From Coriolopsis trogii (Eukaryota > Basidiomycota > Agaricomycetes > Polyporales > Polyporaceae), in contig JAHYIO010000003.1 in assembly GCA_020543525.1 (NCBI GenBank), positions 3,038,001 to 3,102,000 of the forward strand: a stretch of 64,000 nt of DNA, in the 5' to 3' direction. The position numbers and the translations under genes are program-made. A model generated the notes under the pieces. It saw nothing but the letters and a program-made list of their open reading frames with translations, was not told the DNA's origin and did not search any database. Below, one piece after another: positions 31,432-57,971 of this stretch; position 1 is the stretch's first letter; each line of letters begins with the position of its first letter.

Positions 31432-34400
31432 ATGGGGGACGAATACCCTACTTTATTCCGTGTGTGACTTCTGTGTTCCACTCGTGTTACTTCCCTGACC
31501 AACAGTCCACAGGCTCCGAGCAGATGAGCTTGGTACAGCTCATTGTGCCCACTGAAGTTGCCCACGATACTATTGCTGAGCTGGGGGAGTTGGGGAACGT
31601 GCAGTTCAAAGACGTGCGTCTGCCTCAGTGTTCCTTCTATGCATGCCATAACAATCTCTGGGTATACTTGCTCACATAGCTGAACCCTGATGTCAACCCT
31701 TTCCAACGCTCCTTCGTTGGGGAGATTCGTCGCATTGACGAAATGGCGCGCCGCGTGCGGTTCTTTGCAAGCCAGATCGAGAAGGAGAAGGATCCCATTC
31801 CTATCCGGCCGTTGTACGACTCGGCTCCTCTGGTCACTGTCGGGCCGCGTGCTGCCCAGACGATTGACGAGTTGGACGTGAAGCTCGCGGAGCACGAGGC
31901 ACGCTTGACGCAGATGAACGAGAGCTACCAGCTCCTCAGCGAGCGGCTCAGGGAGCTAGTTGAAGCTCGTCACGTTCTCCGAGAGACCGCCGTATTCTTC
32001 GACAGAGTGAGTTCCGGCCAATACCTCGGCTTCCTTGCCTTTGCTCATGTGCTACAGGCTGCTGTGCGCGAGACGGAAACTCGGCACTCCTTGGATGACA
32101 GTTCAGCGCCCCTTTTGCAACACGATGACCGCGAGCAGCAGTATTCTGCCGCCGGTGACGTTCAACTTGACCTCGAGTGAGTTGGAAGCCGCTACTGCGC
32201 GCGCTTCAAACAGGAGCTGAATGCATGTACAGGTTCGTTGCTGGTACAATCGATCGGACACGTCTGTCGACGTTCGAGCGCGTCCTCTGGCGCGTGCTCC
32301 GCGGCAACCTCTACATGAACTACATCGACATTCAGGAGCCCTTCGTCGACCCGGCGACTGGTGCCGAGACGCGCAAGAACGTCTTCATTATCTTCGCGCA
32401 CGGCGATATATTGCTCGCCAAGATTCGCAAGGTCGCCGAGTCCATGGGCGCGACGATATACCCTATCGATGTGAACGCCGACAAGCGGGCGGACTCTATG
32501 CGTGAAGTTACAGGCCGTCTCGAGGACTTGCAAATCGTGCTATACAATACTGGCGCCAATCGCAGGACCGAGCTTATGAACATTGGCGACAACCTGGCCA
32601 GCTGGCAAGACGTGGTGGCCAAAGAGAAGTTGATCTACGAGACGCTGAACCTGCTCAACTACGACGTCCGCCGGAAGACCCTCATTGCCGAGGGTTGGTG
32701 CCCTACTCGTGACATCGCCCAAATCCAGCTGGCTCTGCGTCATGCTACGGTACGTGTGTTCTTTTGGTGACGGTGTGGTCCCCGTGAACGTGCCAGACCA
32801 TCTGCTATTCGAAGCAGAAGATATGAACGGCGTCCGTGTCGTGACTGCGTATTCCTTGTCATAGCCTCCGTCGCACCATTATCGGCAGTCGAGGTGGTCT
32901 TCAGAGCTTCATTCGTGCATGTGTTGTGTATATTCGGCGTTGGTTTCTCTCGGTGTCAGTTTGAGCTATTGTCATGTGCTCGCCCACCCTTGCTGGATAG
33001 CTTCTTCTGATATCACCTGGCAAAAACTGACAACGTCCTCAGGAGGAATCTGGTACGAACGTGCCTCCCATCCTTCACGAGCTGCGTACGAATCGCACCC
33101 CGCCGACCTTCATCCGTACGAACAAGTTCACAGAAGGCTTCCAGACGATCATGGACGCATACGGTATCGCGACTTACCAAGAAGTCAACCCTGGTCTCTT
33201 CGCGGTTATCACTTTCCCGTTCTTGTTCGCCGTCATGTTCGGGGATATTGGTCACGGCTTCATCGTCTTCATCGCGGCGGCGCTCATGATCATGTTCGAA
33301 AGGAAGTTGGCGAAGAGCGACCTGGGCGAGGTACGTGTTCGACCTCAAGGCGATAGCGATCGATATTAACCCTCTTCACCAGATCATCGGCACCTTCTTC
33401 TTGTGTGTAGAGTTTAGGTGTGCATCGTATACGGAGACTGACTTTCTGACAGCGGTCGTTACATTATCCTGTTCATGGGTATCTTCTCGATCTACACCGG
33501 CTTCCTCTACAACGACATTTTCTCCAAGTCGCTCCACTTATTCCATTCTGGTTGGTCGTGGCCTGAACGGGACGGGGATGATCCCATTACGGCTGTTTCT
33601 AACGGGCATACCTATCCCTTCGGACTCGACCCTGCTTGGCATGGTGCAGACAACCAGTTGCTGTTCACGAACTCGTACAAGATGAAGATGTCCATTGTGC
33701 TCGGTGTCATTCATGTTCGTTCTTACTATCGTCTTCTCTGCGATGCCGCTTACTGATGGCGTATCGTGATGTTAGATGACGTTCGCGGTCTGTCTTCAGG
33801 TCCCCAACCACATTCGTTTCAAGCGTTACTCCGACATCTGGACCAATTTCATTCCGCAAATGATCTTCTTGCAGTCCATCTTCGGCTATCTTGTCGTTTG
33901 CATCCTGTACAAGTGGACTGTGGACTGGACCAAGTCCTCCACTCAACCGCCGTCTCTCCTGAACATGCTCATTGGAATGGTGCTCACCCCTGGTGTAGTT
34001 GACGCGGACACGCAGCTTTATCCTGGACAGAGCACCGTGCAGGTCATCCTCCTGTTGATGGCCGGGGTGTGTGTGCCATGGCTGCTCATCACGAAGCCTT
34101 ACCTGCAATACAAAGAGATGCAGAAGATCCAGGGTCAAGGCTATATCGGGCTCGGCGCGGATGAAGCGCCTCGGGGTGCGGAAGACACGATTCTAGAAGG
34201 CGAAGAAGAAGGCAATGGCCGAGCCATCGTGGAGGCCAACGACGAGGAGCATGTAGGTGTCCGTACGTCTTATCGTCTAGGAAGTGCCCTCATCTGTCCA
34301 TCGCAGGAACAACACGACTTCAGCGAGGTTGTCGTGCATCAGATCATCCATACGATTGAGTTCTGCTTGGGATGCGTCTCACACACTGCCTCGTACCTTC

Positions 34401-34817
34401 GTCTCTGGGCGCTCTCGTTGGCGCACGCGCAACTGTCGGAAGTGTTGTGGGACATGACCCTCGCTGGCGTGCTCGAGATGACGGGTCTGATTGGTCTTGT
34501 TGCCAAGTTGCTCGTGGGAGCGATGTGGCTTGTCATGACGATTGGTATTTTGTGTATCATGGAGGTGAGTGCTTGTTCTTAGCGGAGGTCATGGGTCGTG
34601 GACGGGTGCCGTATCTGATCAACACGGTTTAGGGTCTTTCTGCATTCCTGCACGCGCTTCGCCTGCACTGGGTCGAGGCGAACAGCAAGCACTACGAAGC
34701 GGGCGGTTATGTAAGTGGTGTTTCATCTCCGTGCCTGCGGGGGGACGTGTTGCTGATGCGATTGCCCCACAGCAATTCACTCCGCTGAGCTTCGCGCGGC
34801 TGAACGAGAAGCAGTAA
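31432..34817 (+). CDS. VPH1: V-type H+-ATPase subunit a (Vo sector)
   Basis: The first exon (from 31432) encodes [10 protein letters not shown] and is spliced to [19 protein letters not shown], the conserved start of V-ATPase a subunits. The cytosolic N-terminal half follows ([17 protein letters not shown], a coiled coil, [17 protein letters not shown]). The C-terminal half has multiple membrane helices, including [33 protein letters not shown] and [30 protein letters not shown]. It ends with [21 protein letters not shown], which contains the essential Arg in LRLHWVE. Subunit a provides the proton half-channels next to the c-ring and anchors the stator, acidifying the vacuole or endosomes. 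Most introns are 50-70 nt; the one at about 32751-33041 is nearly 300 nt. The gene is complete. Confidence 0.97.
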
Positions 34818-35107
34818 AGGGGAGGGCTGCGTGGAGAAGCATCGGGCGAGGCTCGGACTGTAGATAGCCTGAGGTCGTGAATGCACTAGTTCCGACGCCG
34901 GCATCGGCGCATGTGCTTCGGGTGTGCCATCTGCGAGGCGGGGAGACTGGACTGTCACTGGACAGCTTCGAGGTTCGCCGGGACATGCGGGGGGGCGTTA
35001 CCCCGCACTAGCCACTGCAAGCGATGAGTAAGCGCCGGTCTTGACATGCCACCGGCGTCCACGTGAGATCGCTCTTTTTTTCGGACTCCGCTAAATCGCA
35101 GTCTTCC
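34818..35107. other. intergenic, terminator and promoter region
   Basis: It holds the 3' end of the V-ATPase gene and the upstream region of eEF3, with no coding frame. Confidence 0.4.
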
Positions 35108-35115
35108 TATATAAG
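35108..35115 (+). promoter_or_regulatory. TATA box of the eEF3 gene
   Basis: TATATAAG is followed by CT-rich sequence and a probable 5' UTR intron at 35185-35240 (GTATGT to CTCAG) before the ATG at 35383. Leader introns and a CT-rich start region are common in highly expressed fungal translation genes. Confidence 0.5.
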
Positions 35116-35382
35116 CCTGATGAGCGTCGCGCTAAACCCTATCCCCACTCCTTCTTTCCTCTTCCTTTCTTTGTCTCATAGACGGTATGTCCCTCCATCC
35201 TCTCGTTCGCCTTGTCCGCACTGCTGATCTCCTGTCTCAGGCTCCTGGCCATAGAAATAGAGTGACTCTCTCCGTCCTTGACGACCTTTTCTTGCGTTTC
35301 GCCGCTCTACTAGACTCTGATCACGGTATCATCTCTTAAGGTGAATACACCGCCCCCCTCTGTCATCCCCACACAAGTAACG

Positions 35383-38300
35383 ATGCCCCAACCCGGTGCT
35401 CAGATCTCCAAAATGCCCGCTACCACCGCTGCTGCTACCCCCGCTACCCCTTCCCCCGCCTCCCTCAAGGCCGCCGTCGTTCCCGCGGAGGGCCAGTTCG
35501 ACATCTCTGGTCTCTTCGTTGCCGACAAGTCGGCCCGCGAGGCAGCTGCTGCTCAGTTCGCCGCGCTCGCTCAAAAGGATGGCCCCTCGGCTGTCCAGTC
35601 TGTCGGCTTCACCGATGCCGCCGTGAAGGCCCTCAACGATAAGAAGTCCCCCGCTGCGCGTGAGGGTGCCGCTAACGCGGTCGCTGCTGTTGCTGCGACG
35701 CCCGCGGTAAAGGCGCTCGAGCCCTACTTCATTGACTCTGGCCTCTACGCGGCGCTCCTCGAGACGTTCGCCGACAAGATGCCCGCCGTACGCAATGCTG
35801 CCGTCGAGGCGGTGCGGTCGTACGTTGCAGCTATGAACCCCTGGGCTGCGGGTCTTGTACTCCCCGCCCTTCTTCATGAAATCAAGACTGCCGGCAAGTG
35901 GCAGATCAAGACGGGCTCGATTGTCATTCTCAACCAGCTCGTCAAGTCCGCTCCCGCGCAGACCGCCAAGCTCACGCCCGAGATCGTTCCTGTCCTCGCT
36001 GAGGCCATCTGGGACACGAAGGCTGACGTGAAGAAGGCGGCGCGCGATTCGCTCGAAAAGGTCACGGCTCTCGTATCCAACAAGGACATAGAACGCTTTA
36101 TTCCTGCCCTCATCAAGGCTCTAATCAACCCGGTTGAGGAGGTGCCGAACACCATCGCGCTCCTCTCAGCCACTACATTCGTTTCCGAAGTAGACTCCCC
36201 CACCCTCTCCCTCATGGTTCCTCTCTTGTCCCGTGGTCTCAACGAGAAACTCACCGCGACCAAGCGCAAGGTTGCCGTCATCATCGACAACATGGCGAAG
36301 CTCGTCGACTCCGCTGTCACCGTCCGTCCCTTCATCCCGAAGCTTCTGCCCGGCCTGCTCAAGGTCGAGTCTTCGATGGGTGACCCCGAGGCCCGCAGCG
36401 TTGTCTCGCGCGCGATTGCGACCCTCCGCCAGGTCGGTGAGGTCCCTCATGGCGATGGCTCCGATCTTCCTCCTCTCAAGAAGGCCGATGAGAAGTCCCT
36501 TGCGCACACGCTTATCGGTATCTACAAGAAGGCCGGTGCAAACCCTGTCCCCTCGGTTGCGGACGTGTCGGCGATCTACAGTTCCTCCCTCGCAGCGAAC
36601 ATGGTCAACAACAAGAACTTCGACGTTTCAGAGTGGCAGTCGCTTGCTCCGTACCTTGCTTTCCTCACTTCGTCGCCCGAGCCCATCTCCATTGTCAATG
36701 AGTGGGTTGTCAAGTCTGCTTCCGCGGACGAGGAGGAGGAAGAAGCCGCCGAGGATGAGGAGGAGGGTGAGGATCTGTGCAACTGCCAGTTCTCGCTCGC
36801 CTACGGTGCGAAGATTCTGCTCAACACTGCGACCCTCCGTCTCAAGCGTGGCCACCGCTACGGTCTTTGCGGTCGGAACGGTACCGGAAAGTCGACGCTC
36901 ATGCGTGCGATTACCAACGGGTGAGTAATGAACGCACAGTTTTCACTTGCGTGCCGCCGCTGACGTCAGTTTGTTCACAGCCAAGTCGAGGGCTTCCCAT
37001 CCCCTGACGAGGTCCGCACCTTCTACGTCGAGCACGATATCGATGGCTCTGAGGCAGATACCGCTGTCCTCGACTTCATCCTCGCTGACAAGCGTATCGA
37101 GGCGTCGAAGGAGGAGGTCATCGAGACCCTCGCCTCCGTCGGCTTCTCCGACGAGAGGCAGAAGCACGCTATCGGCAGCCTTTCTGGTGGTTGGAAGATG
37201 AAGCTCGCGCTTGCCCGCGCGATGCTCTTCAAGGCCGACATTCTGCTCCTCGATGAGCCGACCAACCACTTGGATGTTGTCAACGTCGCGTGGCTCGAGA
37301 ACTACCTCACCGGCCTCAAGACTTGCACTTCGATCATTGTCTCGCACGACTCCGGTTTCCTCAACAACGTCATCACCGACGTTCTCCACCTGAACCGCTT
37401 CAAGCTCAAGCGCTACCGTGGCAACCTTGAGAACTTCATGAAGGCCGTGCCTGAGGCTCGTTCATACTACACCCTTGAGGCCGCCGAGGACTACCAGTTC
37501 AAGCTCCCGGATCCCCCTCTCCTCGAGGGTGTCAAGACGAAGGAGAAGTCGCTTCTCAAGATGCGCAAGGTCGGTTTCCAGTACCCTACGCAGCCCGTCC
37601 AGCAGCTCTACGACATCACTCTCCAAATCTCGCTCTCCTCCCGTGTTGCCGTCCTCGGTCCCAACGGTTCCGGCAAGTCCACGCTTGTCAAGCTCCTTAT
37701 TGGCGACATGGAGCCCAACAAGGGCGGTGAAATCTGGAAGCACCCCAACTTGGTCATCGGTTACGTTGCGCAGCACGCGTTCCACCACATCGACCAGCAC
37801 CTCGACAAGACCCCTCTGGACTACATGTTGTGGCGCTACCAGACCGGTGAGGATCTCGAGGAGATGATGAAGGCGAACCGCCAGATCACCGAGGAAGAGG
37901 CCAAGAAGATGAAGGATGGTTCCGTCGTAGTCGTCGAGGGCCAGAAGCGTATCATCGACGAGATCGTCGCTCGTAAGAAGCTCAAGCAGTCGTACGAGTA
38001 CGAAGTCTCCTTCAAGAACATGTCTTCGTCGGAGAACATCTGGCTTCCCCGTGATGACCTTATCAAGCGTGGTTTCGAGAAGGTCAGTCTCACAATCGTA
38101 TCATGCCGCTTCGTTTTGTGCTGACCGACGACGTCCCTGTTTACAGAAAGTCCTCGAGGTTGATACTCGTGAGGCTCAGCGCCTTGGTCTTCTCCGTCCC
38201 CTCGTTCGTCGGGAGATCGAGAAGCACTTTGCGGACTTTGGTCTCGAGGCCGAGTTCGTCTCGCACAACACCATGCGCGGTCTCTCGGGTGGTCAGAAGG

Positions 38301-38719
38301 TCAAGGTCGTCCTCGGTGCTGCGACATGGCGTCGCCCCCACGTTATCTGCTTGGACGAGCCGACGAACTACCTCGACCGTGAGTCGCTCGCTGCGCTCAT
38401 CAAGGCTCTCAAGGAGTTCGAGGGTGGTGTGCTCGTTATCACGCACAACCGCGACTTCTCGGAGTCCCTGTGCACTGAAGTCTGGGCCATGCGCGATGGC
38501 CGTCTCGAGGCGTCTGGCCACAACTGGGTTGAGGGCCAGGGCTCCGGTCCCCGCATTGACAAGAAGGACGGAGAGGATGAGGACCAGTACGATGCGATGG
38601 GTAACAAGATCGAGAACAAGAAGACGAAGAAGTTGACGTCGGCGGAGGCACGTAAGCTTAAGAAGGAGCGCATGGCGCGGAAGAAGCGCGGTGAGGAGAT
38701 CACCGACGACGAGCTCTGA
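35383..38719 (+). CDS. YEF3: translation elongation factor 3 (eEF3)
   Basis: Three exons (35383-36920, 36981-38082, 38147-38719) sum to 1070 residues, the normal eEF3 length. HEAT repeats fill roughly residues 40-360. The first ABC domain has Walker [10 protein letters not shown], signature [15 protein letters not shown] and Walker [13 protein letters not shown]. The second has [26 protein letters not shown] and [12 protein letters not shown], with the chromodomain-like insert between ([20 protein letters not shown]). The tail is Lys-rich, as needed for ribosome binding. eEF3 is an essential, fungal-type ATPase that helps release E-site tRNA during elongation. Codon use is strongly biased to C-ending codons (for example AAG, GTC, CTC), fitting high expression. 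An alternative ATG lies at 35413. Confidence 0.98.
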
Positions 38720-40965: not shown

Positions 40966-41174
40966 GTACGTACACTGGTACACCTGGTACAGTGGTGCGC
41001 GAGGCGGGTGGTCCTGGGGTTTGCGAATATGTTACAATGTGAGACCGTATATGACGGACGATCTATCATGAGTTCAAAGCACATAAAGGAAGATCTGTGG
41101 AGTACGACAAGGCACATAGGACTAGTACGGAGGAGTGTACCCTTGGGTTAAAAACTAACATGGTTAAAAATGAG
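40966..41174. other. short spacer with A/T-rich tRNA flank
   Basis: It contains the 3' flank of the M50B-like gene and, close to the tRNA 3' end, A-runs on the plus strand (T-runs in the minus-strand transcript) that may terminate Pol III. Confidence 0.35.
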
Positions 41175-41256
41175 AGGCGCTACCAGGGCTCGAACCTGGG
41201 TTTTGGGAAGATGTAAAGTCAGAATCCCAAGTGATAACCACTACACTATAGCGCCC
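41175..41256 (-). tRNA. tRNA-Gln (anticodon CUG) with a 9-nt intron
   Basis: On the minus strand the acceptor GGGCGCT (5' end at 41256) pairs with AGCGCCT (3' end at 41175). The D arm has AGTGTAGTGGTTATCACT, the anticodon stem is TGGGA/TCCCA, and the T arm is CCAGG-TTCGAGC-CCTGG. The anticodon loop starts TTCTGA (anticodon CUG). It is followed by nine extra bases, CTTTACATC, before the final loop T, exactly at the canonical intron site after position 37. The remaining bases match fungal tRNA-Gln(CUG). Confidence 0.92.
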
Positions 41257-41795: not shown

Positions 41796-42296
41796 TTAGG
41801 CGGCGGTGGGCTCGGGGGCGCGGTACTTCCTACAAAGCGGACGAGGAAAGATGTCATGAGGTTGGTGGACGTGATAGTCGGAATTTGTGGATGATGGGGC
41901 CCGGTAACTTACAGGGAAGGATGAGCGGCCTCACGCTTGTAGACGTTGGTGGGCTCGGGAGCACGGTACTTCCTGCATGGGCAGACGGGGAGAAAGTCGA
42001 GACTTGTGATGAGAAAAGGCAACTTGGACGATTAGGTTCGGGTGCTTACAGGGAGGGATAAGCAGCATCGCGCTTCCACACGTTGGTGGGCTCGGGAGCG
42101 CGGTACTTTCTGCAGATAAGACGGGGAAAACGTCAAGAGAAGGCAGTATAGACGTTTAAATGAGGGAGCTCACAGGGAGGGATAAGCAGCATCGCGCTTC
42201 CACACGTTGGAGGCCTCCGGAGCGCGATACTTGCTATACGACGGACCAGGAGAGATGTGAGGTAGTGTAGTGGTGGCAGACAATTGTGAGCTTACA
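41796..42296 (-). repeat. tandem exon-intron repeat (about 120-145 bp unit)
   Basis: Four copies of an exon segment encoding LKYRAPEPTNVWKRDAAYPS, or a truncated form, begin at 42233, 42109, 41972 and 41829. Internal exons are exactly 60 nt. The intervening introns are 62, 64, 77 and 83 nt and have diverged, while the exon segments remain nearly identical. Confidence 0.9.
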
Positions 42297-42465
42297 GGGA
42301 GGGGTAAGCCGCCTCGCGCTTCTTGGCCTCAACTCCGCGGCGCGCATCGTACTGCTTGAGCGCCTTCTTGACGGGAGTCGCACCGTTGGCAGGGACGGGG
42401 GTAGCGGTCACGGTGAGCATGAGCGCGAAGAGGGCGACAAGGAAGAGGATGACGCGGGACTGCAT
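41796..42465 (-). CDS. secreted Kex2-type repeat peptide precursor
   Basis: Five minus-strand exons (42296-42465, 42174-42233, 42050-42109, 41913-41972, 41796-41829) sum to 384 nt, giving 127 residues. Residues 1-22 or so are a clear signal peptide (MQSRVILFLVALFALMLTVT). A pro-region follows, with dibasic sites KK, RR and KKR. Then come repeats of about 20 residues: EAAYPSLKYRAPEASNVWKR, DAAYPSLKYRAPEPTNVWKR, DAAYPSLKYRAPEPTNVYKR, and a last short copy EAAHPSLKYRAPEPTAA. Each copy starts with Glu-Ala or Asp-Ala, a typical dipeptidyl-aminopeptidase substrate, and all but the last end in Lys-Arg, the Kex2 site. This is the same plan as the yeast alpha-factor precursor. Predicted products are three 16-residue peptides such as AYPSLKYRAPEPTNVW plus a terminal variant. 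All introns are phase 2 with proper GT-AG ends. I recognise no described family. The peptide could be a signal, a toxin-like or antimicrobial peptide, or a RiPP core; no modifying enzyme is adjacent. Confidence 0.85.
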
Positions 42466-42627
42466 TGTGGATTATGTGATTGAGGGAACGACGGACGAAT
42501 AGACAACAAAGACGAAGAGGAAAGCGAAGAAGATGGAAAATGAAGTCGGGTGGCGAGGGGCAGGCAAGTTATAGGCGTGCACCGGTTGAGGTTCCCGATG
42601 AAGCGGATAAAACGAAAGGCGCAATCT

Positions 42628-42635
42628 TTATATAA
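42628..42635 (-). promoter_or_regulatory. TATA box of the repeat-peptide gene
   Basis: On the minus strand this reads TATATAAA, 163 bases upstream of the ATG at 42465. Confidence 0.45.
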
Positions 42636-55241: not shown

Positions 55242-57971
55242 TCAATGAGTCTCAGCTCGACTACGATGGGGTAGGCCGCCCCTCATGGAGCCGCCGCGGC
55301 CACCACTACGCGCACCCGAACCTGAAGCCGACCCTTTATGCGCGAGGGGAGACATAGGCGCGTCCACTGCCCCACCATGCGAGCTGTCATCGTCTGAGTC
55401 GTCCGAACCGGGGCCACACAAGAACATTCCAAGGTGCTTGTACGTTTCCATCTCCGGTATGTCAGCTTTGTTGCGTTTATTGGGTGGCAGATCCTGGTCA
55501 TCATCTTCGGGGTCCTCGTTCTCCTTGTTGTCGTCGGTTTCCTTGGCAGCAGTCGGTGCAGTCCTGTCACCGACATAGTCCGCGACCGGCCATGCGTCGT
55601 CAAGCATCCGCCTGAGGACAGCCTTGAAGTACGCATGCGAATCAAGCTGTGCGGCAGCTTCCTTGACAGGGGCTGGAGGTGGGCGAGGAGGGTTCTCCGG
55701 TTTACGGGTCTTGGTGTGATACCATACACCCACTTTCCGGCCGTGCTCGATGACAGTGTAGCGAGCTTTGAAGACAGGCAGCATCTGCACGAGCAACGTA
55801 TTCAGAGGGTGTCCATCGGAAGTCTCGTCTGCGTCGCAATAGAACTCGAGAGACGTGGTACCGACGTTGATGTTTCCGGCCACCATGGAATCGAGTTTCT
55901 TGTGACCGCACCGGTAGTTGTTCTTCTGAAGGGAGTACGAATCGAAGAAGTAAAGGAGGAAGGAGGAGACGTCTGACACTGTACTGCGGAGATAGCGGAC
56001 GCCACTGTAGATGATGACGTAGAAAAGCGACTCCACTTCGTCCGGAATACCGATGGGAAGTCTCGGGTACCATAGGAGGGCGGCAGACATGAACTGCCAG
56101 GTTCCCTATAGATAACTCAGTATAAGCCGAGCAAGAAGATAATAAGAAACGTACTGTTCTCTCTGGCTGACGGGCTTTAGGGGATTCGCCGTCCTTGGGA
56201 ATTGCTTTGGCTAGCTCCCAGTCCGCGAGAACGCCTCTCCATTCGATGACGAGGATGCCATTCTTCTCGACTACGGTCGGAAGAATGAGCACGTTGCCGA
56301 GACTGATGTCGCCGTGGATGAGACGAGTCTTTTTCACAGCCTCCTCATGAGCTGTATAGCGACTACAATCAGCATGAGATTATAACAACCAAGGCACAGC
56401 ACTACACACCTTCCCAACAGTCTGAGGCAACCTGAACGAGCTGACGTGATGTCGTGACCTCGGAAAGAGGGAGGCACACCTCTTCGACAACGAGGCGGTA
56501 GTGAGACATATGCCGGACACGAGAGATTTTCTTCTTCTCTCCGATGGTTGCCTTCGAGGTACCAGAGCGGCTGCGCTTTGAACCGCGGCTAGTGCCACTG
56601 CCCTCCGCGGAGACGTCTTCGGGGTTGGTATTCTGCGCCTTGTCCCGGTAGAAATGCGTCTGTGTCTCTTGGCCAAGATCACCAGCCAATGCAAGAGTCG
56701 GGATCCGGGTTACACCCGCTTCCTGGAGGCTTCGGAGGATGTCCCCCTCCGGATCGATACCCAAGTAGTACGCACGCCACGTGTCTTTCAGCCATACGAA
56801 CTTCCTCGCCTTGACGTCCCAGGCGATGTAGCCACGCGTCGCGCGGCCCACCATTCCCGAAGCTAGGAACGTAGGCTTCCCGATGAGGTACTTCCTGCTC
56901 TTCTGGCTCTCACAGGGGACGGTTACGCAGTATCGAGGCCAATCCTCCACCAACGACTCCGCAAACCTCTTGCGGATGTAGCTGAATGTGCCCAACGGTG
57001 TGTTTTCTTCAGGCTTCGGTACCACGGCACCCTCGTCGCCGCAGATATCGGGTGGTTGACCTTTCAGCGGACCCTTGGCAATTGTGTCCATGAGCTTGTA
57101 GTACTCGTGGTTCTTGGTTAGAACCTCCGTCGTGTAGTCGACGCCTTGCGCCTCGTCCGAAAGCATCGAGAACCGCCGGAGGAAGTCACGAAGGAGGGTG
57201 GGATTATCGACGTAGTCGAAGGCCTCGGTGAATATTGTCCCGGCGCGATCCCAACGGGTCACGCGCATCCTGGTGCCGTTAACCAGGGCAATGAAGATGG
57301 CAGTCCGCTGTTGATGAGCAAAAACATGTGCTGCATAGTGAGTGAGCTGTGCGCGGACGACGGTGCGCTTCTGTGCCTCAGCATCGCCGGTGGCGTCGTC
57401 GAAGGGATCGTGCTTAATGCCGCCCGGTTTGAACTCGATGAGGAGGCGCTGGGAGGCCCAGTGTAGTCGGGGGTCTCGTGGTTACGGAAGAGTGCAGCGT
57501 CGACCTTCAGTTTGGCTTCGTCGTGAGGATCCCAACGGTCCTGCGACAAGGCAATGTTGTAACCAGGGCATAAGGCCGCCTGTCGAGGGGTTGTCGAGGG
57601 ATTGAAGAGGTTTCTCTGTATTGAATCAGAATGCTGATTTGTAACCAAGCGTGCCAAGAGCGGAGTAGTAGAGTTAACTCACCCATTCGTTGGCTATATC
57701 CCTCTCAGCCTTGAGGTCACGTATTGCGCTCAAGTCTGGAACATCTGGGCAGGTCTTCCGCTGATGGGTTGGCGGGAGTGGGAGGAATGCGTCGAGGAAG
57801 TCGGAAGAGGGGAGGTAGAGGGACATGTCGGCGGAACGGTCTTCAACGAGGGCTTGACCAACGTTGCTACATCACTGTGAGAGTGAGGCAGCAAACACCA
57901 TACATATCGTTGCCATCGCACATGGAGGCAAAGGAATGGACAGTCTCAGCCACGGTGGTTCTGGTTAGCAT
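55242..57971 (-). CDS. FunK1 fungal-type protein kinase, with one apparent frame break
   Basis: Exon 1 (57904-57971), exon 2 (57683-57866) and a long exon 3 (from 57615) cover the N-terminal part. Later exons carry the kinase core: AHEEAVKKTRLIHGDISLGN (catalytic loop with HGD...N), VLADWELAKAIP (DWE in place of DFG) and GTWQFMSAALL. Then come the FunK1 C-terminal part DEVESLFYVIIYSGVRYL and a long acidic, Gly/Ser-rich tail ending at 55242. FunK1 kinases are an Agaricomycete-expanded family linked to multicellular development. Near 57463 the frame of KVDAALFRNHETPDYT and that of WASQRLLIEFKPGGIKHDPF are offset by one base, and no GT-AG intron bridges them. The copy may be newly inactivated, or the base may be an assembly error. 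Confidence 0.85.

Follow-up and report, generated by a model that had tools for sequence, protein, structure and literature searches.

Proteins of basidiomycetes that are built of tandem repeats and processed by KEX2 (KEX2-processed repeat proteins, or KEPs), including ones that bear STE13 signatures, are described in passages of three reports (Le Marquer 2019, PMC6339444; Umemura 2020, PMC7329392; Vogt 2022, PMC9769878). By the definition found in an excerpt of PMC7329392, a KEP carries at least three tandem repeats of at least eight residues lying between KR, KK, RK or RR sites. Portions of five papers (PMC6339444, PMC7329392, PMC9769878, PMC10182648 and PMC5837088) indicate that alpha-factor-like KEPs are known in this group of fungi and that some of them have been processed and detected. 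According to sections of PMC9769878, KEP 490115 of Coprinopsis cinerea gives rise to the peptides QYKAPSW and QMRPPSW, a C. cinerea KEP is cut at RR and trimmed by STE13 in Pichia, and Pleurotus peptides from STE13-motif precursors were detected by mass spectrometry. The role of alpha-factor-like peptides in mushrooms, which use other pheromones for mating, is treated as an open question in the parts of the three KEP papers drawn on here.

The window considered here is a 64,000-nucleotide stretch of contig JAHYIO010000003.1 (contig C3 below) of Coriolopsis trogii. A peptide gene runs on its minus strand from an ATG at 42465 to a stop codon ending at 41796 (42465 -> 41796; all coordinates of this gene refer to the minus strand). 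Splice-site reading resolves it into five exons of 170, 60, 60, 60 and 34 nt, the stop being counted in the last, and four GT-AG introns of 62, 64, 77 and 83 nt, for a product of 127 aa. Each intron conforms to GT(A/G)AG...AG and all four are in phase 2, the break falling after the second base of the codon that follows YPS or HPS; the junctions were placed on the basis of the sequence, the frame and an inferred conserved intron position. Exon 1 (42296..42465) encodes a hydrophobic, signal-peptide-like N-terminus, MQSRVILFLVALFALMLTVTA (residues 1-21, 42403..42465, cleavage point set by inspection), a pro-region, TPVPANGATPVKKALKQYDARRGVEAKKR (residues 22-50, 42316..42402), with the first Kex2-type site, KKR, at its end, and the N-terminal half of core 1 (EAAYPS plus 2 nt). 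Beyond intron 1 (42234..42295), exon 2 (42174..42233) supplies the C-terminal half of core 1, KR, DA and the N-terminal half of core 2. Intron 2 (42110..42173) leads to exon 3 (42050..42109), with the C-terminal half of core 2, KR, DA and the N-terminal half of core 3, and intron 3 (41973..42049) to exon 4 (41913..41972), with the C-terminal half of core 3 (an NVY variant), KR, EA and the N-terminal half of core 4. Intron 4 (41830..41912) precedes exon 5 (41796..41829), made up of the C-terminal half of core 4 (KYRAPEPTAA) and the stop. A TATA-like element, TATATAAA, lies about 160 nt upstream of the ATG (42627..42634, minus strand), as a consensus match only.

Read from its N-terminus, the product comprises MQSRVILFLVALFALMLTVTA and TPVPANGATPVKKALKQYDARRGVEAKKR, then EAAYPSLKYRAPEASNVW-KR-DAAYPSLKYRAPEPTNVW-KR-DAAYPSLKYRAPEPTNVY-KR-EAAHPSLKYRAPEPTAA; that is, four units on the pattern KR(E/D)AA(Y/H)PSLKYRAPE..., each of 19-20 residues including KR. 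The original prediction had thus been right about position, strand, length, signal-like N-terminus and pro-region, as well as about an alpha-factor-like processing plan in a basidiomycete, the four KR(E/D)A units falling within 127 aa. Its four repeat copies are also there as units, the fourth being a variant that ends in ...PEPTAA and is devoid of the NVW end. Judged by its sequence, the locus is a real gene. With four repeats of 19-20 residues (KR counted), each of them (4/4) opening with an X-A or X-P dipeptide directly behind the Kex2 site, it fits, as far as sequence can tell, the published class of KEPs with STE13 signatures.

By analogy with these systems, and from the anatomy of the precursor, we slightly favour the view that the five-exon gene specifies a secreted precursor that is cut into four near-identical linear peptides, likely a non-mating extracellular signal. 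The product would enter the secretory route by way of its signal-like N-terminus; Kex2 would cleave at the KR sites, a Ste13-type dipeptidyl peptidase would remove the N-terminal EA or DA and Kex1 would trim the C-terminal KR. The output would be four linear peptides, each 15-16 residues long and with the sequence AYPSLKYRAPEPTNVW or a variant of it, acting outside the cell through a presumed receptor. Kex2-type P-domain matches were found at C3:622583 and, more weakly, at C1:1029904 (E 6.4e-4), and a DPPIV-type gene at one locus, on C30. For mass spectrometry, the exact predicted peptides can be given: the computed [M+H]+ is 1891.970 for AYPSLKYRAPEPTNVW, 1608.849 for AHPSLKYRAPEPTAA, 1868.954 for the NVY form and 1851.939 for the EASNVW form. 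The function of the peptides would come down to a choice between self-signalling and biotic interaction. Counting against a signal, the knockouts of six C. cinerea KEPs had no visible phenotype, according to a section of PMC9769878.

Relatives were sought with single sequences and with profiles. A single-sequence search returned two Trametes proteins, a profile built on three sequences 18 proteins, and a profile built on 15 sequences, for which scoring was confined to the 7997 candidates with the most words in common, at least 30 relatives. Sixteen of the 30 have a species name and fall into nine genera, all of them Polyporaceae according to NCBI (one species per genus checked): Trametes (sanguinea, punicea, maxima, cingulata, polyzona, gibbosa, elegans and versicolor), Pilatotrama, Cubamyces, Lenzites, Lentinus, Cerioporus, Polyporus, Daedaleopsis and Ganoderma. 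The window gene itself could be placed in no family by sequence searches of Pfam, Rfam and PDB. The earlier statement that the peptide matches no known family is not supported: the gene fits the KEP class, as set out in passages of PMC6339444 and PMC9769878, and has 30 relatives, the named ones Polyporaceae.

The window gene shares with these proteins an LKQ[YF][DN] leader, a PS[KL]x[WY] core and, probably, an intron in the codon after PS. The leader segment L[KR]Q[YF][DN] is present in 29/30 relatives, the exception being P0030 of Trametes versicolor, which keeps the first 23 residues of the family and is different throughout thereafter; P0030 is probably a wrong, out-of-frame gene model. For the core, 15 of the 31 sequences were dropped from the count (12 exon-1-only ORFs, together with P0018, P0029 and P0030, whose ends are unreadable as core). 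PS[KL]x[WY] occurs in all 27 core units of the 16 precursors whose core could be read, the window gene among them. Nine of the 16 have a single core (P0001, P0002, P0004, P0005, P0008, P0009, P0010, P0011 and P0019), namely the six Trametes with a readable core, Pilatotrama, Cubamyces and Lenzites. Two cores were found in Lentinus and Cerioporus, three in Polyporus and Daedaleopsis and four in the window gene, and the Ganoderma-type proteins P0027 and P0028 have a second PSKHW at the protein end. The 12 ORFs set aside stop exactly at PSK or PSL, that is, at the boundary of exon 1 of the window gene. Since a phase-2 GT(A/G)AG intron, when read through, makes just such a stop, we infer that they are exon-1-only calls with the same intron position as the window gene; the position of the family intron in the relatives is taken from these 12 ORF ends.

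The sites of processing vary more widely within the family. All four window units begin with the acidic-Ala spacer EA or DA (the STE13 signature), whereas an X-A or X-P dipeptide follows the site in just 1/36 units of the relatives, P0018 and P0030 being left out of the 30; in 25/36 the site is followed by DD, DE or EE. Trimming by Ste13 at the spacer is therefore likely, on these sequences, to be a local trait rather than a family trait, and the count speaks against the Ste13 step of the signal explanation as a family feature. The fixed bioactive core of the original prediction survives in part: PS[KL]x[WY] is fixed and is usually followed by R (23/27), while neither the NVW end nor the acidic-Ala dipeptide (1/36 in relatives) is.

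What stands behind the aromatic suggests a second cut, after R: of the 27 units, 23 have R in this place (RR in four, in four precursors), two end the protein there, one has H and one Y. A tentative alternative, which we consider unlikely overall, is worded around a shorter peptide that would end at the conserved aromatic (in this species (A)YPSLKY, in relatives ...KPSKHW or ...KPSKVY), with the chain cut also after R. The tail behind R would then be an X-A/X-P ladder, digested by a Ste13-type enzyme, with T/SNVW left in this species. Cleavage at the basic residue within the core (LKYR|A) may occur as well, which counts against the favoured reading. Such a scheme agrees with the invariance of the aromatic and with the tails, 16/25 of which can be read as two or more X-A/X-P dipeptides in register; the change from EA in unit 1 to EP in units 2-4 keeps the dipeptide type, and single-Arg cleavage products of agaricomycete KEPs were seen in Pichia (a portion of PMC9769878). 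It agrees less well with the 9/25 tails that have no ladder (all seven from Polyporus, Lentinus and Cerioporus, that of P0027, and that of P0002 unless its H marks a cut), and P0019, one of the 16 that pass, has Y instead of R. In a shuffle test, just 1/25 tails fell below 0.05, the tails being related to each other; P0028 was the only one with a ladder rare in shuffles. The tail of this Ganoderma-type protein after RR reads EA-RP-TP-SKHW, with three X-A/X-P dipeptides before the end.

The conservation of the leader also bears on the signal reading. Over the 91 pairs of 14 species (Daedaleopsis, whose model is without the N-terminus, was left out), mean identity was 0.73 in the signal segment and 0.71 in the pro-region, as against 0.58 in the first core; the signal segment exceeded the core in 77/91 pairs and the pro-region did so in 75/91. 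Between the window gene and the other 13, the means were 0.52 for signal, 0.72 for pro-region and 0.40 for core, and the pro-region exceeded the core in 13/13. A leader better conserved than the core is the reverse of the simplest expectation for a conserved hormone and counts against the signal reading. A conserved leader over a looser core is seen in several ribosomal peptide families, which leaves room for a role in defence or interaction. That the products are secreted linear peptides of defence or interaction is in our estimate rather improbable; the cores would then target competitors or hosts, which would account for their variability beneath a conserved leader. Against this stand the net charge of the first core, which lies between -1 and +1 (15 species, one core cut short) whereas common antimicrobial peptides are cationic, and the excess of silent over coding change between the repeat units. 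In sections of PMC9769878, the authors favour a biotic-interaction role for the KEPs they knocked out, and the tested C. cinerea peptides are described as being without antibacterial effect.

Within the pro-region, the LKQYDAR segment (42340..42360) is strongly conserved among relatives and is preceded by KK, KR or RK in 29/29 of those that hold it. Docking or folding might be its role, or it may itself be released as a second peptide; for the leader stretch between KK and RR as such a peptide, the RR behind is missing in several relatives. An AlphaFold model of the Polyporus relative P0003, computed with 25 relatives and without the window protein, had a mean pLDDT of 56.5, with two helices across the leader and nothing across the core.

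The repeats themselves are visible at the DNA level as three overlapping families of 3-4 copies each, 69-94% identical to their own reference copy. Synonymous differences per site (0.20-0.58) were higher than non-synonymous ones (0.04-0.12) in 6/6 unit pairs, each with 13.8-14.8 synonymous sites, the six pairs being mutually dependent. Because of these repeat families, of the excess of silent over coding change and of the recurrence of the leader and core motifs in other species, the repeats were judged not to be due to chance. The introns have diverged more than the units. Alignment of the six intron pairs gave z-scores of 0.8, 1.0, 3.4, 4.3, 3.4 and 2.4 relative to shuffled introns, so that some likeness is left in 4/6 pairs; this fits a duplication of intron and exon together, the introns having drifted thereafter. 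Exon 1 joined to exon 5 yields KREAAYPSLKYRAPEPTAA, which is laid out like the single-core proteins of Trametes. Most simply, copy number would have grown from a Trametes-like single-core ancestor as a symmetric unit of intron plus exon was duplicated in tandem. The exact core pattern has four matches in the 38.8-Mb genome, all within the window gene and none elsewhere. A protein search of the genome for paralogues gave 10 matches, four of them exons of the window gene and the other six with E values of 0.06-0.8; four of these six weak matches became loci, which on reading had no visible leader or repeat.

The same symmetry opens the way to a more elaborate version of the short-peptide scheme, which we hold to be distinctly improbable. 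The gene would then encode a polypore-wide signal, the active part of which, a short peptide ending in the invariant aromatic, would be released by the Kex2 cut, the cut after R and the X-A/X-P ladder. Splicing would set its dose and the mix of variants: every extra unit, being a symmetric exon, could be left out without loss of frame, and intron retention would end the chain after the half-core PSL. Exons 2-4, at 60 nt each, can indeed be added or skipped in frame, the frame being kept in 6/6 exon combinations tried, and read-through of any of the window introns (4/4) leads to a stop right after the PSL half-core.

Very little weight attaches to a structural peptide of the cell surface resembling Ustilago Rep1. 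Rep1 is KEX2-processed without a STE13 signature, as stated in a passage of PMC6339444, and the relatives found here are mostly without it too; single-core precursors, 9/16 of those with a readable core, are however a poor fit with bulk material, and the cores are short and polar.

A dikaritin-type RiPP precursor, the cores of which would have their Tyr and Trp cyclised by UstYa-type oxidases, appears no more credible. It would suit the secretory leader and the KR-bounded Tyr repeats, and UstYa genes do exist in this genome. Their 10 exon matches lie on C33, C5 and C28, and a six-frame exon search for UstYa/DUF3328 gave none on C3, which speaks against a dikaritin, for which such a gene would be expected within about 15 genes; the RiPP suggestion of the original prediction is not supported. 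Around the gene, 20 long ORFs were picked by hand and searched with Pfam. Ten had a family and 10 had none, the families including V-ATPase subunit a, EF3 and its ABC domains, an RRM protein, ORC2, a fungal transcription factor and a FunK1-type kinase; among the 10 family-assigned ORFs there was no peptide-tailoring enzyme. Exons of the V-ATPase 116-kDa subunit and of elongation factor 3 lie next to the gene (window 32171-38716, plus strand) and can be used as synteny anchors. The FunK1-type fungal protein kinase domain lies at window 56405-57481 (minus strand), and a tRNA-Arg (anticodon TCT, 82 nt), on which ARAGORN and Rfam agree, at window 41174-41255 (minus strand), about 0.5 kb downstream of the gene.

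Least probable of all is a mating pheromone of the alpha type with STE2 as its receptor; this reading has the KR-(E/D)A-core processing plan in its favour and is at odds with the absence of a Pfam family for the window gene and with the location of the STE3 and CaaX-pheromone matches on another contig. All 18 STE3 exon matches fall on C4, at 842-889 kb, and the one CaaX-pheromone match in the genome is at C4:871434; their place together on C4, with the window gene on C3, speaks against a mating pheromone and upholds the non-mating character claimed at the outset. A STE2 search of the genome gave no match, and 14 control genomes were equally without one. The window product has no CaaX box, its C-terminus being PEPTAA and the whole product being free of Cys, and no match to MF_alpha, MF_alpha_N or another Pfam family was obtained at E up to 10.

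With these data, what was an orphan repeat becomes a family that can be traced, its members having between one and four cores, and the parts kept in evolution can be named: PS[KL]x[WY] in the core and LKQYDAR in the leader. Shared among Polyporaceae and present once in this genome, the gene lends itself to testing the role of such peptides, and the layout with an intron inside the core offers a clear view of copy gain in such precursors. The strings LKQYDAR, KPSKHWRA, YPSLKYRAP, KPSKIWRA and KPSKVYRA were absent from the literature text searched, the supplementary tables of the KEP papers, where the family may be listed, lying outside that search. Among PSKHW, KPSKVY, KPSKIW and PSLKYRA, only PSKHW was found in literature text, in a Theileria paper, and nothing pertinent came from a literature search that asked about introns, or about splicing, in precursors of repeat pheromones. 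What is new here is a sequence family inside a known class, together with an exon layout in which the intron lies inside the core.

Compared with known systems, the precursor has a secretory leader and KR-bounded Tyr repeats in common with those of the dikaritin RiPPs (ustiloxin, phomopsin and asperipin), from which it differs by having no UstYa match on its contig. Ascomycete alpha-pheromone precursors present the same order of parts and the same likely enzymes; the window gene differs from them in that it has no Pfam match and that the STE3 and CaaX-pheromone matches of its host are on another contig. KEP 490115 of C. cinerea is like the window gene in its dibasic site, its STE13 motif and a peptide with a C-terminal Trp; its cores are of seven residues, and the likeness is one of plan only. 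The nearest counterparts are KEPs with a STE13 signature, which have the same signal-like leader, KR-bounded repeats and EA or DA after the site. Most of the relatives would not count as KEPs under the definition given above, since they have at most two cores and lack the STE13 spacer. A passage of PMC7329392 puts at 78% the share of its KEPs without a nearby DUF3328 gene, and none was found near this gene either. The window gene is set apart from other KEPs by its core sequence, and its cores are split by introns and carried on symmetric exons of 60 nt (the exon layout of other KEPs lying outside this comparison).
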